A stretch of DNA of 64,000 bases, taken from contig JAJPEP010000087.1 of NCBI GenBank assembly GCA_021166845.1, forward strand, positions 1 to 64,000. The letters are read 5' to 3'. Numbering within the stretch: the first letter of the stretch is position 1; every line of letters starts with the position of its first letter. The position numbers and the translations under genes are program-made. The notes below the pieces were generated by a model. It did no database searches and was not told where the DNA came from. It saw only the letters and a program-made list of their open reading frames with translations. The stretch comes from Thiobacillus sp. (GTDB lineage Bacteria; Pseudomonadota; Gammaproteobacteria; Burkholderiales; Thiobacillaceae). Shown here piece by piece: positions 57,583-63,415 of this stretch.

Positions 57583-57636
57583 GTAGGGTGCGCCATGCGC
57601 ACCAGATCAATGGACGGTGCGCACAGCGCACCCTGC
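57583..57636. repeat. REP palindrome pair in the cbbM leader
   Basis: A direct copy (57583-57603, GGTGCGC-CAT-GCGCACC) and an inverted copy (57616-57636) sit just before the cbbM ribosome-binding site (AAGGAG at 57648). The stem uses CGC/GCG instead of CAC/GTG, a compensated change. In the mRNA leader each copy, or the pair together, would fold into a strong hairpin upstream of the translation start. Confidence 0.92.
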
Positions 57637-57659
57637 GTTATTTATCAAGGAGTCATGCA

Positions 57660-59039
57660 ATGGATCAATCCGCACGTTACGCCGACCTCAGCCTGAAAGA
57701 GGAAGACCTGATCAAGGGCGACAAGCACATTCTCGTCGCTTATCACATGCAGCCCGCCACCGGCTATGGCTACCTGGAAGTGGCCGCGCACATCGCCGCC
57801 GAGTCCTCCACCGGCACCAACGTCGAAGTCTCCACCACGGACGACTTCACCAAGGGCGTGGACGCACTGGTGTATTTCATCGATGAAGCCAAGGGCGTGA
57901 TGAAAGTCGCCTACCCGAACGACCTGTTCGACCGCAACGTGACCGACGGCCGCGCCATGCTGGTGTCGTTCCTGACGCTGGCGATCGGCAACAACCAGGG
58001 CATGGGCGACGTCAAGCACCTGCAGATGCAGGATTTCTATGTGCCCTGGTCCATGCTGCGCCAGTTCGACGGCCCGGCCAAGGACATCACCGACCTGTGG
58101 GACATCCTGGGTCGCCCGCGCGTCAACGGCGGCTACATCGCCGGCACCATCATCAAGCCCAAGCTGGGCCTGCGCCCCGAGCCGTTCGCGCACGCCGCGT
58201 ACCAGTTCTGGCTGGGCGGCGACTTCATCAAGAACGACGAACCGCAGGGCAACCAGGTTTTCTGCCCGGTCAAAAAAGTGATTCCGCTGGTGTACGACGC
58301 GATGAAGCGCGCCATGGACGAAACCGGCCAGGCCAAGCTGTTCTCCATGAACATCACCGCCGACGACCATTACGAAATGCTCGCTCGCGCCGATTTCGCG
58401 CTGGAAACTTTCGGCCCGGATGCCAACAAGGTCGCCTTCCTGGTCGACGGTTACGTCGGCGGTCCCGGCATGATCACCACCGCGCGTCGCCAGTACCCGC
58501 AACAGTACCTGCACTATCACCGTGCCGGCCACGGCGCCGTGACTTCGCCTTCCGCCGTGCGCGGCTACACCGCCTTCGTGCTGGCCAAGATGTCGCGTCT
58601 GCAAGGGGCTTCCGGCATCCACGTCGGCACCATGGGCTACGGCAAGATGGAAGGCGGCCGCGATGACCGCAACATCGCCTACATGATCGAGCGCGACTCG
58701 GCCGACGGTCCTTACTACCATCAGGAATGGCACGGCATGAAGCCCACCACCCCGATCATCTCCGGCGGCATGAACGCGCTGCGCCTGCCCGGCTTCTTCG
58801 AGAACCTCGGCCACGGCAACGTGATCAACACCTCCGGCGGCGGCTCCTACGGCCACATCGACAGCCCGGCGGCCGGCGCGATCTCCCTGCGCCAGTCCTA
58901 CGAGTGCTGGAAGGCCGGCGCCGACCCGATCGAGTTCGCCAAAGAGCACAAGGAATTTGCCCGCGCGTTCGAGTCCTTCCCCGGCGACGCCGACAAGATC
59001 TTCCCCGGCTGGCGCGAAAAGCTGGGCGTGCACAAGTAA
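57660..59039 (+). CDS. cbbM: Ribulose-bisphosphate carboxylase, form II
   Basis: CbbM fixes CO2 on RuBP. The 459-residue product is a form II RuBisCO: Lys 166 in [14 protein letters not shown] and the carbamylated Lys 191 in [14 protein letters not shown] fall at the same numbers as in the Rhodospirillum rubrum enzyme, and the loop 6 and phosphate-site motifs [11 protein letters not shown] and [10 protein letters not shown] are intact. The ATG at 57660 follows AAGGAG. It is controlled by divergent CbbR and followed by a terminator and cbbQ. Confidence 0.98.
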
Positions 59040-59203: not shown

Positions 59204-59244
59204 AGCGCTTTGGGTTACCAAGCGTTGCCAGTGTGGAGTCACAA

Positions 59245-60048
59245 ATGATCGACAAAGACCAGTACAAGATTCAGCAGGAACCGTTCTACCAGCAGCAGAA
59301 GAACGAAGTCGCGCTGTACGAGGCCGCCTACCGCAACCGCCTGCCCGTGATGGTGAAAGGCCCCACCGGCTGCGGCAAGTCGCGCTTCATCGAATACATG
59401 GCGTGGAAGCTCGGCAAGCCGCTCATCACCGTGGCCTGCAACGAGGACATGACCGCGTCCGACCTGGTCGGGCGCTACCTGCTGGAAGCCAACGGCACCC
59501 GCTGGCTCGACGGTCCCCTCACCACCGCCGCGCGCATCGGCGCCATCTGCTACCTTGATGAAATCGTCGAAGCGCGCCAGGACACCACCGTGGTGATCCA
59601 CCCGCTCACCGACCACCGCCGCACCCTGCCGCTCGACAAGAAGGGCGAGCTGCTCCATGCGCACCCCGATTTCCAGCTGGTGATTTCCTACAATCCCGGC
59701 TACAAGACGCTGATGAAGGACTTGAAGCAGTCGACCAAGCAGCGCTTCACCGCCTTCGATTTCGACTATCCCGAAGCCGCGCTGGAAACGCGGATCGTGG
59801 CGGAAGAGACCGGCATGGACGAAGCGGTGGCCGCCAAGCTGGTGAAAATCGCCGGCGTCGCCCGCAACCTCAAAGGGCACGGCCTGGACGAAGGCATCTC
59901 CACCCGTCTGCTGGTGTACGCCGCGACCCTGATCAAGGACGGCGTGGACCCGACGGACGCCTGCCGCATGGCGCTGGTGCGCCCGATCACCGACGACGCC
60001 GACATCCGCGAAACATTGGATCACGCCATCGACGCCACGTTTGCGTGA
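59245..60048 (+). CDS. cbbQ: RuBisCO activase subunit CbbQ
   Basis: CbbQ is a MoxR-type AAA+ ATPase that, with CbbO, removes inhibitory sugar phosphates from RuBisCO. The 267-residue product has Walker [10 protein letters not shown] near residue 41, Walker [13 protein letters not shown], sensor 1 LVISYNPGY and the [13 protein letters not shown] region. The ATG at 59245 follows GGAG; a GTG at 59233 is less likely. The RAYT gene and REP copies interrupt the usual direct link to cbbO. Confidence 0.95.
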
Positions 60049-60059
60049 TATGAAGAAAC

Positions 60060-60117
60060 GTAGGGTGCACTTCGTGCACCGTCCTTCTTTAACCGCCGTG
60101 CGCGAAGCGCACCCTAC
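60060..60117. repeat. REP palindrome pair upstream of the RAYT gene
   Basis: A direct GTAG REP at 60060-60080 (loop TTC) and an inverted one at 60098-60117 (GCGCGAAGCGC stem) flank a short spacer. The pair begins 11 bases after the cbbQ stop and ends 4 bases before the RAYT ATG, the typical flanking position of elements used by RAYTs. Confidence 0.92.
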
Positions 60118-60121
60118 GTAA

Positions 60122-60658
60122 ATGTCCCACTATCGCCGTTCCCGGATGGGTGGCGCCACGTACTTTTTCACGGTGGTGACGTATCGTCGACAGCCGTTAC
60201 TGACCCGACCGGAGGCGATGGATGCCCTGCGCGAGGCTTTTCGTTCCGTTCAACACGCCCACCCTTTTGAGATGGACGCCGTCACCATCCTGCCCGATCA
60301 TTTGCACGCCCTATGGACGTTGCCTGCGGGCGACGAAGACTTCAGTCGTCGCTGGGCCATGATCAAACGCCTCGTATCCGGAGCGGTCGGGCATCTTGCG
60401 GCGCCCGTCTCCACGCCCTCCATGAAAACAAGGCATGAATCCGGATTCTGGCAACGGCGCTTCTGGGAGCACCTGATACGCGATGACAATGATTTCGCGC
60501 GTCACATGGATTACATCCACTTCAACGCCGTAAAGCATGGCCACGCAGAGCGCCCGGCGGATTGGCCGCATTCGAGCTTCCAAAGATGCGTGGAGCGAGG
60601 CATTTACCCGGCAGATTGGGCATCGGGCGTGGAGATCGAAGGTGAATTCGGTGAGTGA
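60122..60658 (+). CDS. REP-associated tyrosine transposase (RAYT)
   Basis: This 178-residue protein is a Y1/HUH-type nuclease of the REP-associated group. The HUH motif is visible as PDHLHALWTLP near residue 62, and the catalytic tyrosine in DYIHFNAVKHG near residue 133. The FWQRRFWEHLIRDDNDF stretch is typical of RAYTs. It is flanked on both sides by REP pairs whose GTAG foot matches the known preference of RAYTs. It is single-copy and probably domesticated or a mobiliser of the surrounding repeats. A fragment of its 3' end is repeated downstream at 60827. Confidence 0.92.
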   Translation: MSHYRRSRMGGATYFFTVVTYRRQPLLTRPEAMDALREAFRSVQHAHPFEMDAVTILPDHLHALWTLPAGDEDFSRRWAMIKRLVSGAVGHLAAPVSTPSMKTRHESGFWQRRFWEHLIRDDNDFARHMDYIHFNAVKHGHAERPADWPHSSFQRCVERGIYPADWASGVEIEGEFGE

Positions 60659-60681: not shown

Positions 60682-60990
60682 GTAGGGTGCACTCCGTGCA
60701 CCATCCATGGAGCAGGCAATGCGGTGCACGAAGTGCACCCTACGTTGAGTGCATGATGGGTAGCGGGTGCGTGCAATATCGCTCCACCCTTCGTAGGGTG
60801 CACTCCGTGCACCATCCACGGAGCAGACTTCAACGCCGTAAAGCATGGCCACGCAGGGCGTCCGGCGGATTTTCCGTATTCCACCCTTTGTGGCAATGCG
60901 GTGCACGGAGTGCACCCTACGTTGAGGGCATGATGGGTAGTGGGTGCGCGCAGTATGGTGCCACCCTTTGTAGGGTGCACTCCGTGCACC
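60682..60990. repeat. Duplicated REP block between RAYT gene and cbbO
   Basis: REP copies lie at 60682 (direct), 60723 (inverted), 60793 (direct), 60900 (inverted) and 60970 (direct). The segments 60682-60792 and 60793-60969 are tandem duplicates, sharing the spacer CATGATGGGTAG and CATCCATGGAGCAG-like flanks. The second copy contains an inserted piece of the RAYT 3' end. The last REP ends 17 bases before the cbbO start, and the sequence ATGGAGCAG after it supplies the cbbO ribosome-binding site. Confidence 0.9.
60827..60882 (+). pseudogene. Duplicated fragment of the RAYT gene 3' part
   Basis: The 56 bases match 60519-60574 of the RAYT gene with several differences (for example CAGGGCG versus CAGAGCG and TTTTCC versus TTGGCC). 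The fragment corresponds to the region just after the catalytic tyrosine. It is embedded between REP copies and is not translated as RAYT. Confidence 0.85.
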
Positions 60991-61006
60991 ATTCATGGAG
61001 CAGACC

Positions 61007-63415
61007 ATGACCGAAACCGAATACCAGCACCCCCTGATGGCGGCCTACTGGAAGCAGCTCGACACCCGCTTTCCGAAGGTGGAGGAGGTGTTCGAGGATG
61101 TCATGGCCGAGGCGCTGTCGGTGCTCACGCGCGAAGGGCTCGATGCCTACCTCGAGGCCGGCCGCGTCATCGGCAAGCTGGGGCGCGGCGAGGAGCCGAT
61201 GCTGGCATTCCTGGAAGAATGGCCGTCCGCCGCGAAGGCGGTGGGCGAATCCGCTTTGCCGGCGGTGATGGCGCTGATCCAGCGCATGCAGAAGTCGCCT
61301 AACGGCCGCGCCATCGCGCCTTTTCTGCAGACCCTGGCGCCGGTGGCGCGGCGCCTGCAAACGCAGGAGCAGTTGCAGCTTTACCTGGATATCACGCTGG
61401 ATTTCATGGAGCGCACCACCGGCTCCATCCACGGCCACCACACCACCTTTCCCAGCCCGGGCCTGCCGGAGTTCCTTGCCCAGGCGCCGAACCTGCTCAG
61501 CCAGCTCTCGCTGGCCGGCCTGAAGAACTGGGTGGAATACGGCATCCGCAACTACGGCACCCATCCCGAGCGGCAGAAGGATTTCTTCAGCCTGCAGTCG
61601 GCCGACAGCCGCGCGGTGCTGCAGCGCGAGCGCCACGGCACCCTGCTGGCGGACGTCGAGCACAAGCTGGACCTGTACCTGCGCGGGCTGTGGCAGGATG
61701 GCGACCACCTGGTGCCGTACTCCACAGCGTTCGATGAAATCCGCAAGCCGATTCCGTATTACGACAAGCTCGGCATCCGCCTGCCCGACGTGTACGACGA
61801 CTTCACTCCCCCCGTAGGGTGCATTCCATGCACCAAAAGCGGTGCGCATAGCGCACCCTACGAAGGCGAATCGCAGCGCATACCCGGCATCGACCGCTAC
61901 CGCGCCGTGCTCGCCCACATCGTCGGTCACCGCCGCTGGTCCGAGGCGCAGATCGCCGACAACTGGAGCCCGTTCCAGCGCATGGCGGTGGAGTTCTTCG
62001 AGGACTGCCGCATCGAGACGCTCCTGATCCGCGAATACCCCGGCCTGCGCCGGCTTTTCCTCGCGCTGCATCCGAAGCCGCTGGAAGGCGCCTGCGATCC
62101 GGAAACCACTTCCTGCCTGCGCCACCGGATGGCGATGCTGTCGCGCGCGCTGCTGGAAACGGCTGGTGCACAAAGTGCACCCTACGACGCCTCGGAGTCT
62201 TCCCGTAGGGTGCGCTTCGCGCACCGCCCCGATCATTCAAGTCACGGCTATGCCGACCCCGCTTTGCGCGAATTCGTTGAGCGCTTCCATGAAGTAATGG
62301 CGCAAGGCGAGTCCTCGACCAGCGAAATCGCCGCGCTGGCGCTCTCCTACGTCGCCAAAACGCGCCGCCAGAGCGACCAGCTCGCCAAAATCCACTTCGC
62401 CGACACGGTCGTCGACTACCGCGACGACAACCGCCAGTTGTGGAAATTCATCGAGTCGGGCGACGAGGAAGAAGCCTTCGACGAGAAGCGCAAGATCGAG
62501 CCCGGCGAGGAAATCCAGGGCCTGCCGCCGCGCCATTACCCCGAGTGGGACTACAGCAGCCAGACCTACCGCCCCGACTGGGCCAGCGTGTACGCCGCGC
62601 TGCATCCCAGCGGCAACCCGGCCGACATCGACCGCCTGCTCGCCAAGCACAGCGCGCTCGCCAAGCAGCTGAAGAAGATGCTCGACCTTTTGAAGCCGCA
62701 GGACAAGGTGCGCATCCGCTACCAGGAAGAGGGCAGCGAGCTCGATCTCGACGTCGCGATCCGCTCGCTGATCGACTTCAAGGGCGGCGCCACCCCCGAC
62801 CCGCGCATCAACATGAGCCACAAGACCAGCGGCCGCGACATCGCCGTGCTGCTGCTGCTGGACCTGTCGGAATCGCTCAACGAAAAAGCGGCGGGCTCCG
62901 ACCAGACCATCCTCGAACTCTCCCAGGAGGCGGTGTCGCTGCTGGCCTGGGCGATCGAGAAGCTGGGCGATTCGTTCGCCATCGCGGGCTTTCATTCCAA
63001 CACCCGCCACGACGTGCGCTACCTGCACATCAAGGGCTACGGCGAGCACTTCAACGACGACGTCAAGGCGCGCCTGGCCGCGATGGAGGCCGGCTATTCC
63101 ACCCGCATGGGCGCCGCGATGCGCCACGCCGCCCATTACCTCGGCGCGCGTCCGGCCGACAAGAAGCTCATGCTCATCCTCACCGACGGCATGCCGTCCG
63201 ACGTCGACGTTCACGATGAGCGCCTGCTGATCGAAGACGCCCGCCAGGCCGTCAAAGAGCTCGACCAGCAGGGCATTTTCCCCTACTGCATCAACCTCGA
63301 CCCCAAGGCCGACGAATACGTCGGCGACATCTTCGGCCGCCAGTACACCGTCATCGACCGCATCGAGCGGCTGCCGGAGCGGCTGCCGCAGCTGTTCATG
63401 GCGCTGACGAAGTAG
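61007..63415 (+). CDS. cbbO: RuBisCO activase adaptor CbbO with two REP-derived inserts
   Basis: CbbO is the substrate-adaptor partner of CbbQ. It has a C-terminal von Willebrand A domain that contacts RuBisCO: MIDAS residues LDLSESLNEK with Asp 619 and LTDGMPSD with Asp 727. The 802-residue frame runs uninterrupted from the ATG at 61007 through two GTAG REP insertions, at residues 270-285 (VGCIPCTKSGAHSAPY) and about 387-407 (GAQSAPYDASESSRR and onward). Both lie in the N-terminal half, away from the VWA domain. Apart from these the sequence is normal for the family, so the protein is probably functional. Confidence 0.94.
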   Translation: MTETEYQHPLMAAYWKQLDTRFPKVEEVFEDVMAEALSVLTREGLDAYLEAGRVIGKLGRGEEPMLAFLEEWPSAAKAVGESALPAVMALIQRMQKSPNGRAIAPFLQTLAPVARRLQTQEQLQLYLDITLDFMERTTGSIHGHHTTFPSPGLPEFLAQAPNLLSQLSLAGLKNWVEYGIRNYGTHPERQKDFFSLQSADSRAVLQRERHGTLLADVEHKLDLYLRGLWQDGDHLVPYSTAFDEIRKPIPYYDKLGIRLPDVYDDFTPPVGCIPCTKSGAHSAPYEGESQRIPGIDRYRAVLAHIVGHRRWSEAQIADNWSPFQRMAVEFFEDCRIETLLIREYPGLRRLFLALHPKPLEGACDPETTSCLRHRMAMLSRALLETAGAQSAPYDASESSRRVRFAHRPDHSSHGYADPALREFVERFHEVMAQGESSTSEIAALALSYVAKTRRQSDQLAKIHFADTVVDYRDDNRQLWKFIESGDEEEAFDEKRKIEPGEEIQGLPPRHYPEWDYSSQTYRPDWASVYAALHPSGNPADIDRLLAKHSALAKQLKKMLDLLKPQDKVRIRYQEEGSELDLDVAIRSLIDFKGGATPDPRINMSHKTSGRDIAVLLLLDLSESLNEKAAGSDQTILELSQEAVSLLAWAIEKLGDSFAIAGFHSNTRHDVRYLHIKGYGEHFNDDVKARLAAMEAGYSTRMGAAMRHAAHYLGARPADKKLMLILTDGMPSDVDVHDERLLIEDARQAVKELDQQGIFPYCINLDPKADEYVGDIFGRQYTVIDRIERLPERLPQLFMALTK
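61814..61861. repeat. REP pair inside cbbO, exactly 16 codons
   Basis: A direct copy (61814-61834, stem GGTGCAT-TCC-ATGCACC) and an inverted copy (61841-61861, GGTGCGC-ATA-GCGCACC) form a 48-base insert that starts and ends on codon boundaries. It adds 16 residues between DDFTPP and EGESQRIPG. Both stems carry compensated base changes relative to the main type. Confidence 0.93.
62165..62225. repeat. Second REP pair inside cbbO
   Basis: Here the order is reversed: an inverted copy at 62165-62185 (GGTGCAC-AAA-GTGCACC) precedes a direct copy at 62205-62225 (GGTGCGC-TTC-GCGCACC), with 19 bases between. The frame is kept through both. The inserted region adds roughly 20 to 25 residues before the HGYADPALREFVERFHE block. 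Confidence 0.9.

Follow-up and report, generated by a model that had tools for sequence, protein, structure and literature searches.

The cbbO gene in the window (the whole 64,000-nucleotide stretch analysed here) contains two pairs of REP palindromes of one family, termed REP-A, and its 806-aa reading frame stays open through four exact copies of the unit, as the original prediction had claimed. We consider it probable (roughly 0.83) that GTAG-type REP pairs of this family inserted into cbbO and stayed because they kept the frame and fell into tolerated loops, the process probably being driven by a RAYT (REP-associated tyrosine transposase) and filtered by selection. The earlier reading of these inserts had the right idea and is partly supported; it was incomplete, overlooking the recurrent landing loop at the first site and the RAYT gene a short way upstream of cbbO. 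The features concerned are listed below.

57588..59039, + strand: cbbM, form II rubisco gene (ORF)
59233..60048, + strand: cbbQ, AAA+ partner gene (ORF)
60060..60117, strand not given: REP-A pair preceding the RAYT gene; one mismatch in its second unit
60122..60658, + strand: RAYT gene, 178 aa, between cbbQ and cbbO
60682..60990, strand not given: five REP-A units, after the RAYT gene and before cbbO
60995..63415, + strand: cbbO, CbbQO rubisco-activase subunit, 806 aa, open ORF
61802..61879, + strand: site 1 insert segment (FTPPVGCIPCTKSGAHSAPYEGESQR), 23 residues longer (net) than in most relatives by codon comparison across 82 genes
61814-61834, + strand: REP unit 1 (family A), exact match
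61841-61861, - strand: REP unit 2 (family A), exact match, forming a 48-nt inverted pair with unit 1
62156..62242, + strand: site 2 insert segment (ETAGAQSAPYDASESSRRVRFAHRPDHSS), 26 residues longer (net)
62165-62185, - strand: REP unit 3 (family A), exact match
62205-62225, + strand: REP unit 4 (family A), exact match, in a codon phase different from that of unit 1

Like the CbbO of CbbQO activases, the encoded protein possesses a C-terminal VWA domain (Pfam, residues 618–771), and its gene adjoins an upstream cbbQ. Residues D623, S625, S627, T703 and D731 are unchanged across all 93 aligned sequences and correspond to the MIDAS positions of the motif. The window CbbO gave no match to NCBIfam models. 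For cbbO, translation more likely starts at the second ATG (61007, MTETEYQ), where the consensus of the relatives begins. We take the preceding genes to be cbbQ, from sequence and position, and cbbM, from sequence; each of seven loci compared has a match to the window's cbbQ, 75–97% identical, on the upstream side of cbbO. The probable start of cbbM is 57660, since the 5′ end of the listed ORF overlaps a REP-A pair at 57583–57636. This pair, directly upstream of cbbM, could mislead start calling.

The exact REP-A pattern is GTAGGGTGC-N7-GCACC, a GTAG tag followed by an imperfect-loop palindrome, GGTGC-N7-GCACC. With up to two mismatches allowed, the window contains 32 matches, whereas 100 shuffles averaged 0.71. 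The 3.2-Mb genome of the same organism contains 112 at up to one mismatch, against one for the reversed pattern, and REP-A is therefore a real repeat family. In 36 of its 55 genomic clusters the units form +− pairs spanning 45–58 nt, and REP-A flanks the RAYT gene at 60122–60658 on both sides; tag, inverted pairs and RAYT association are all those of the GTAG superfamily. The RAYT protein matches NCBIfam NF047646 at 187 bits (cut-off 80) and Pfam Y1_Tnp at 22.9 bits, slightly below the cut-off of 23; the genome holds four NF047646 matches, two of them above cut-off. A RAYT-like gene also occupies the cbbQ–cbbO gap of the relatives G006 (94%) and L057 (66%). Other contents of this gap include two small ORFs, alike in L069:1913-2562 and L086:1574-2230, which presumably resemble a MazE/MazF-type toxin–antitoxin pair, and two ORFs of 129 and 228 codons in the 1.3-kb gap at L074:2192-3500.

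The first REP pair in cbbO (61814–61861) is exactly 48 nt long with codon boundaries at both ends, as had been proposed, and only one of the three forward frames of this 48-mer is stop-free. The second pair (62165–62225) spans 61 nt, which is not a multiple of three. The claim that both pairs keep the frame thus holds for the first; at site 2 the frame is kept only by the segment as a whole. Most relatives have 3 codons at each site, against 26 codons at site 1 and 29 at site 2 in the window.

The alignment with relatives that had been suggested for checking the prediction was run on 82 CbbO proteins: those of the window, of G006 and of 80 loci, the best 80 of 257 relatives (one genome per species). 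Frames are open over the matched length in 81 of the 82, with an internal stop in L043. Site 1, measured from VYDD to (I)SG, is empty (10–15 residues) in 51 of the 82 and filled (20–118 residues) in 31, the window having 33. Site 2, from SRALL to HGY, is empty in 78 and filled in four (window, G006, L057 and L088). Relatives without the segments are gapped at both places, and we therefore conclude that REP DNA was inserted and added protein. The added stretches exceed the palindromes themselves in length. The window CbbO thereby differs from most relatives by two REP-derived segments. The idea of a transposable palindrome creating new protein segments accordingly stands at the level of sequence.

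Under a loose classification, the filled site 1 belongs to family A in five genes, to A together with C in G006, to C in L069 and to B in 22, with two unassigned. Strict A and B patterns place A at site 1 in six genes and at site 2 in four, while 13 genes have B at site 1. The 38 strict matches in the 82 cbbO genes all fall within site 1 or 2, and none elsewhere. These patterns gave no match in the 82 genes reversed, nor in cbbQ and cbbM of 81 loci (some of which do not have both genes). Family B palindromes show no GTAG at their unit ends and are not classed as GTAG REPs. On a gene tree built without the insert columns, with 22 of 79 inner branches open, the minimum number of filled/empty changes, gains and losses mixed, is 22 for site 1 (27 when coded by family) and three for site 2. 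In L088 both sites are filled, with B at site 1 and A at site 2. As judged from these comparisons, palindromes of three families have landed repeatedly at site 1 among the orthologues.

Site 1 of the G006 CbbO (L005 / L211) has grown to about 108 extra residues with several A and C units. Another insert, of 28 residues, lies elsewhere in L094 cbbO, at about codon 79 of the aligned core, and its DNA contains unclassified G/C-rich inverted repeats.

The homologous loop was also inspected in 20 CbbO-type paralogues, which are 25–38% identical to the window protein in local alignment; it could be read in 19, one being poorly aligned. Family-B peptides are present in two of the 19, L174 of genome G032 (DAYDDFQLPSPASGGGAGGEGEKVSGLE) and L177 of genome G010 (DAFDDFILPSPGPVGHPLTQAGEANRVSGLE). 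In other paralogues the loop varies in length without any REP, and it is therefore a naturally permissive place.

Exact REP-A copies, counted on both strands, number 91 in the genome of the window, 207 in G006 and 24 in G001 (the genome of L034), and 0–3 in the other 33 of the first 36 genomes. Further genomes with a family-A insert contain 124 (L057), 75 (L068), 59 (L106) and 76 (L088) copies, so that all seven genomes with such an insert hold 24–207. Thirteen comparison genomes without an A insert contain 14, 0, 1, 0, 2, 0, 113, 28, 0, 0, 0, 3 and 3 copies, that is, 0–3 in ten of the 13, and the L102 genome has the same three REP-A places as G049 of the 36-genome set. REP-A is resident yet absent from cbbO in L033 (14 copies), L069 (113) and L074 (28). 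A inserts were thus observed only where REP-A is resident, yet residence is no guarantee of an insert.

Searching with the window RAYT by tblastn, we detected a relative in L057 alone among the 80 loci (a distant RAYT could escape this search) and also in G006. The three genes with a RAYT in the cbbQ–cbbO gap (window, G006, L057) are the three with REP-A at both sites, a link that comprises three genes from two places in the tree. No RAYT was found in the L088 locus, which has A at site 2. None was matched in G024, a genome with 40 family-B copies, and thus a RAYT of this family is not the mover there.

A different history, which we regard as unlikely although deserving of attention, involves few insertions followed by spread of the filled segments between lineages through homologous recombination of cbbO. 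The left junction GAAACGGCTGGTGC at site 2 is common to four otherwise divergent genes and was not found beside any other REP copy in 272 loci; one old or exchanged insertion fits this better than several, and site 2 may represent such a single event. Flanking residues are also alike beside family B and C inserts (e.g., FILP), and the open inner branches of the tree would accommodate exchange. L067 (filled) and L080 (empty) encode proteins that are 97.9% identical, and the alleles differ by about four replaced codons and not by a clean insertion, so that allele exchange may have spread some inserts. Recombination may have carried some of the alleles at site 1. However, no divergence peak adjoins the insert in this pair, the three families and the paralogues require several separate gains, and family A is present only where the host genome holds that REP.

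CbbO is under strong purifying selection. Outside the inserts, omega is 0.12–0.16 between the window and G006, both of which carry inserts, and about 0.05 or less between filled L067 and empty L080; within the inserts it is 0.3–1.0, on 17–48 codons. An AlphaFold model based on 93 sequences has a mean pLDDT of 79.9, a pTM of 0.46 and seven stretches below 50. The inserts are two of these low-pLDDT stretches (274–292 for site 1, 394–413 for site 2), each between well-predicted elements, and the native linker 488–509 is also below 50. Both inserts are thus predicted to be disordered loops.

It is doubtful that such inserts are adaptive, in the sense that a flexible extension tunes the docking of CbbO on the CbbQ ring or on rubisco and that filling of site 1 was selected for. 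In favor of this, one loop was filled repeatedly by different families, in orthologues and paralogues alike, and both sites fall in the part of CbbO that matches residues 1–444 of a related CbbO, described as binding the CbbQ ring (PMC4660213). However, the insert is absent from 51 of the 82 proteins, it is present in L067 but not in its close sister L080, different families encode unrelated peptides, and the omega values inside the inserts, on few codons, are 0.3–1.0.

A role of the inserts as DNA or mRNA, in which a hairpin would affect mRNA stability, pausing or operon tuning and the peptide would be a by-product, appears improbable. Predicted RNA folding is strong relative to composition shuffles in L057 (z = −9.1), L106 (−9.7) and the window (−4.3), as this role would suggest. 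Nevertheless, the inserts of L062 (0.07), L077 (0.03), L094 (−0.64), L056 (−1.29) and L090 (−1.72) have lost the fold and are still in frame, and matches are restricted to two protein loops instead of being spread over the gene.

Finally, a DD or ED codon pair precedes every filled site 1, including the two filled paralogues, but it is highly improbable that an insertion machinery preferring DNA that encodes this pair, and not protein tolerance, makes the hotspot, as the pair is also found at most empty sites, three families use the site (B in a genome without a RAYT match), the context of site 2 is different, and no target signature was found beside 105 REP-A copies, where no base exceeds 60% in the 12 upstream positions and downstream columns reach up to 82%, falling where the partner unit lies.

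We therefore return to insertion and tolerance as the preferred reading. RAYTs act by a single-strand mechanism, and we infer that insertion into cbbO was local and RAYT-driven: family-A elements would be moved by the RAYT whose gene ends about 0.3 kb ahead of cbbO, or by a related one from another part of the genome, and their pairs would insert into cbbO. Insertions out of frame or elsewhere in the gene would be removed by selection, and the remaining peptides would be kept in the mature protein as floppy linkers with little effect.

Of the 55 clusters in the genome of the window, only the two in cbbO were seen to lie 40 or more codons deep in a family-supported gene, a count that covers few of the 25 clusters lying only within 40 codons of a long-ORF end. 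Nine other ORFs have REP-A at least 40 codons from both ends, and a Pfam domain was found in none of them. G024, a single-contig genome of the same genus, has its 40 family-B units in 22 clusters, one of them in cbbO; the scan covered one or more spanning ORFs for every one of the remaining 21. Six clusters are read in frame, either inside a Pfam domain or between the domains of one protein; the proteins are GatB, methionyl-tRNA synthetase, aminopeptidase N, an aminotransferase, DnaE and a radical-SAM protein. Two cases, HemF and a tetrapyrrole-methylase-like gene, are uncertain, the unit being near the N-terminus, and the unit precedes the domain in the frames of NarJ, DUF559 and PgpA. Comparison with relatives covered GatB, which has about 10 extra residues, and the radical-SAM protein, whose loop varies and has similar peptides in two further genomes. 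In-frame palindromes are thus not confined to cbbO in this genus.

REPIN / RAYT systems comprise high-copy inverted REP pairs and RAYT genes, as does the genome of the window, and are usually described as extragenic; unlike them, this genome also has REP pairs inside cbbO, beside a RAYT gene. Palindromes inside protein genes, retained as extra peptides, are also known as Rickettsia palindromic elements (RPE). The likeness to the cbbO inserts is one of analogy, as both are palindromes in genes, whereas the elements and the host groups differ. RPE in protein genes are cited by Di Nocera et al. 2013 (PMC3733652), who assign RPE-4 and RPE-6 to the CGTC superfamily and list that superfamily as having no link to transposase genes.

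The same source describes GTAG/CGTC REPs inside many real genes, more than half of the inserts being pairs or groups, with 20–30 residues added, or 43–82 in clusters (PMC3733652). Many of the affected genes function in DNA synthesis and repair, the recB genes of two Xanthomonas species are the one pair of genes with insertions at about the same site, and neutral placement in flexible linkers or loops was considered. The view that REPs are normally confined to intergenic DNA is therefore not supported as it was put, given these published in-frame REPs (PMC3733652) and the in-frame palindromes of another family in several housekeeping genes of G024. The cbbO inserts are likewise tagged palindromes, often paired, that add residues to a real gene; unlike the cases in the portion of PMC3733652 consulted, palindromes of three families occupy a single loop in 31 of 82 orthologues, and two paralogues are filled as well. 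Neither 'cbb' nor 'rubisco' appears in the main text of that paper, and our literature search found no cbbO case in print, nor one in which several families occupy the same loop in orthologues as well as paralogues. In-frame REPs in genes are thus a known kind, and the multi-family hotspot in orthologues and paralogues was not found described.

We tentatively speculate, and consider it rather unlikely, that site 1 is a true landing loop which REP-type elements of different origin keep entering, that in the lineage of the window a RAYT captured between cbbQ and cbbO seeds the neighboring gene, and that the disordered extensions are used to tune CbbQ–CbbO–rubisco coupling. Repeat DNA has come to land in a single loop of this helper of carbon fixation, and CbbO alignments and models contain loops derived from repeats. 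With three families in one loop, and filled and empty alleles in close relatives, cbbO provides a natural experiment on mobile palindromes becoming protein, in which one can test if the inserts are neutral or have been put to use, and if a RAYT acts on the genes close to it.
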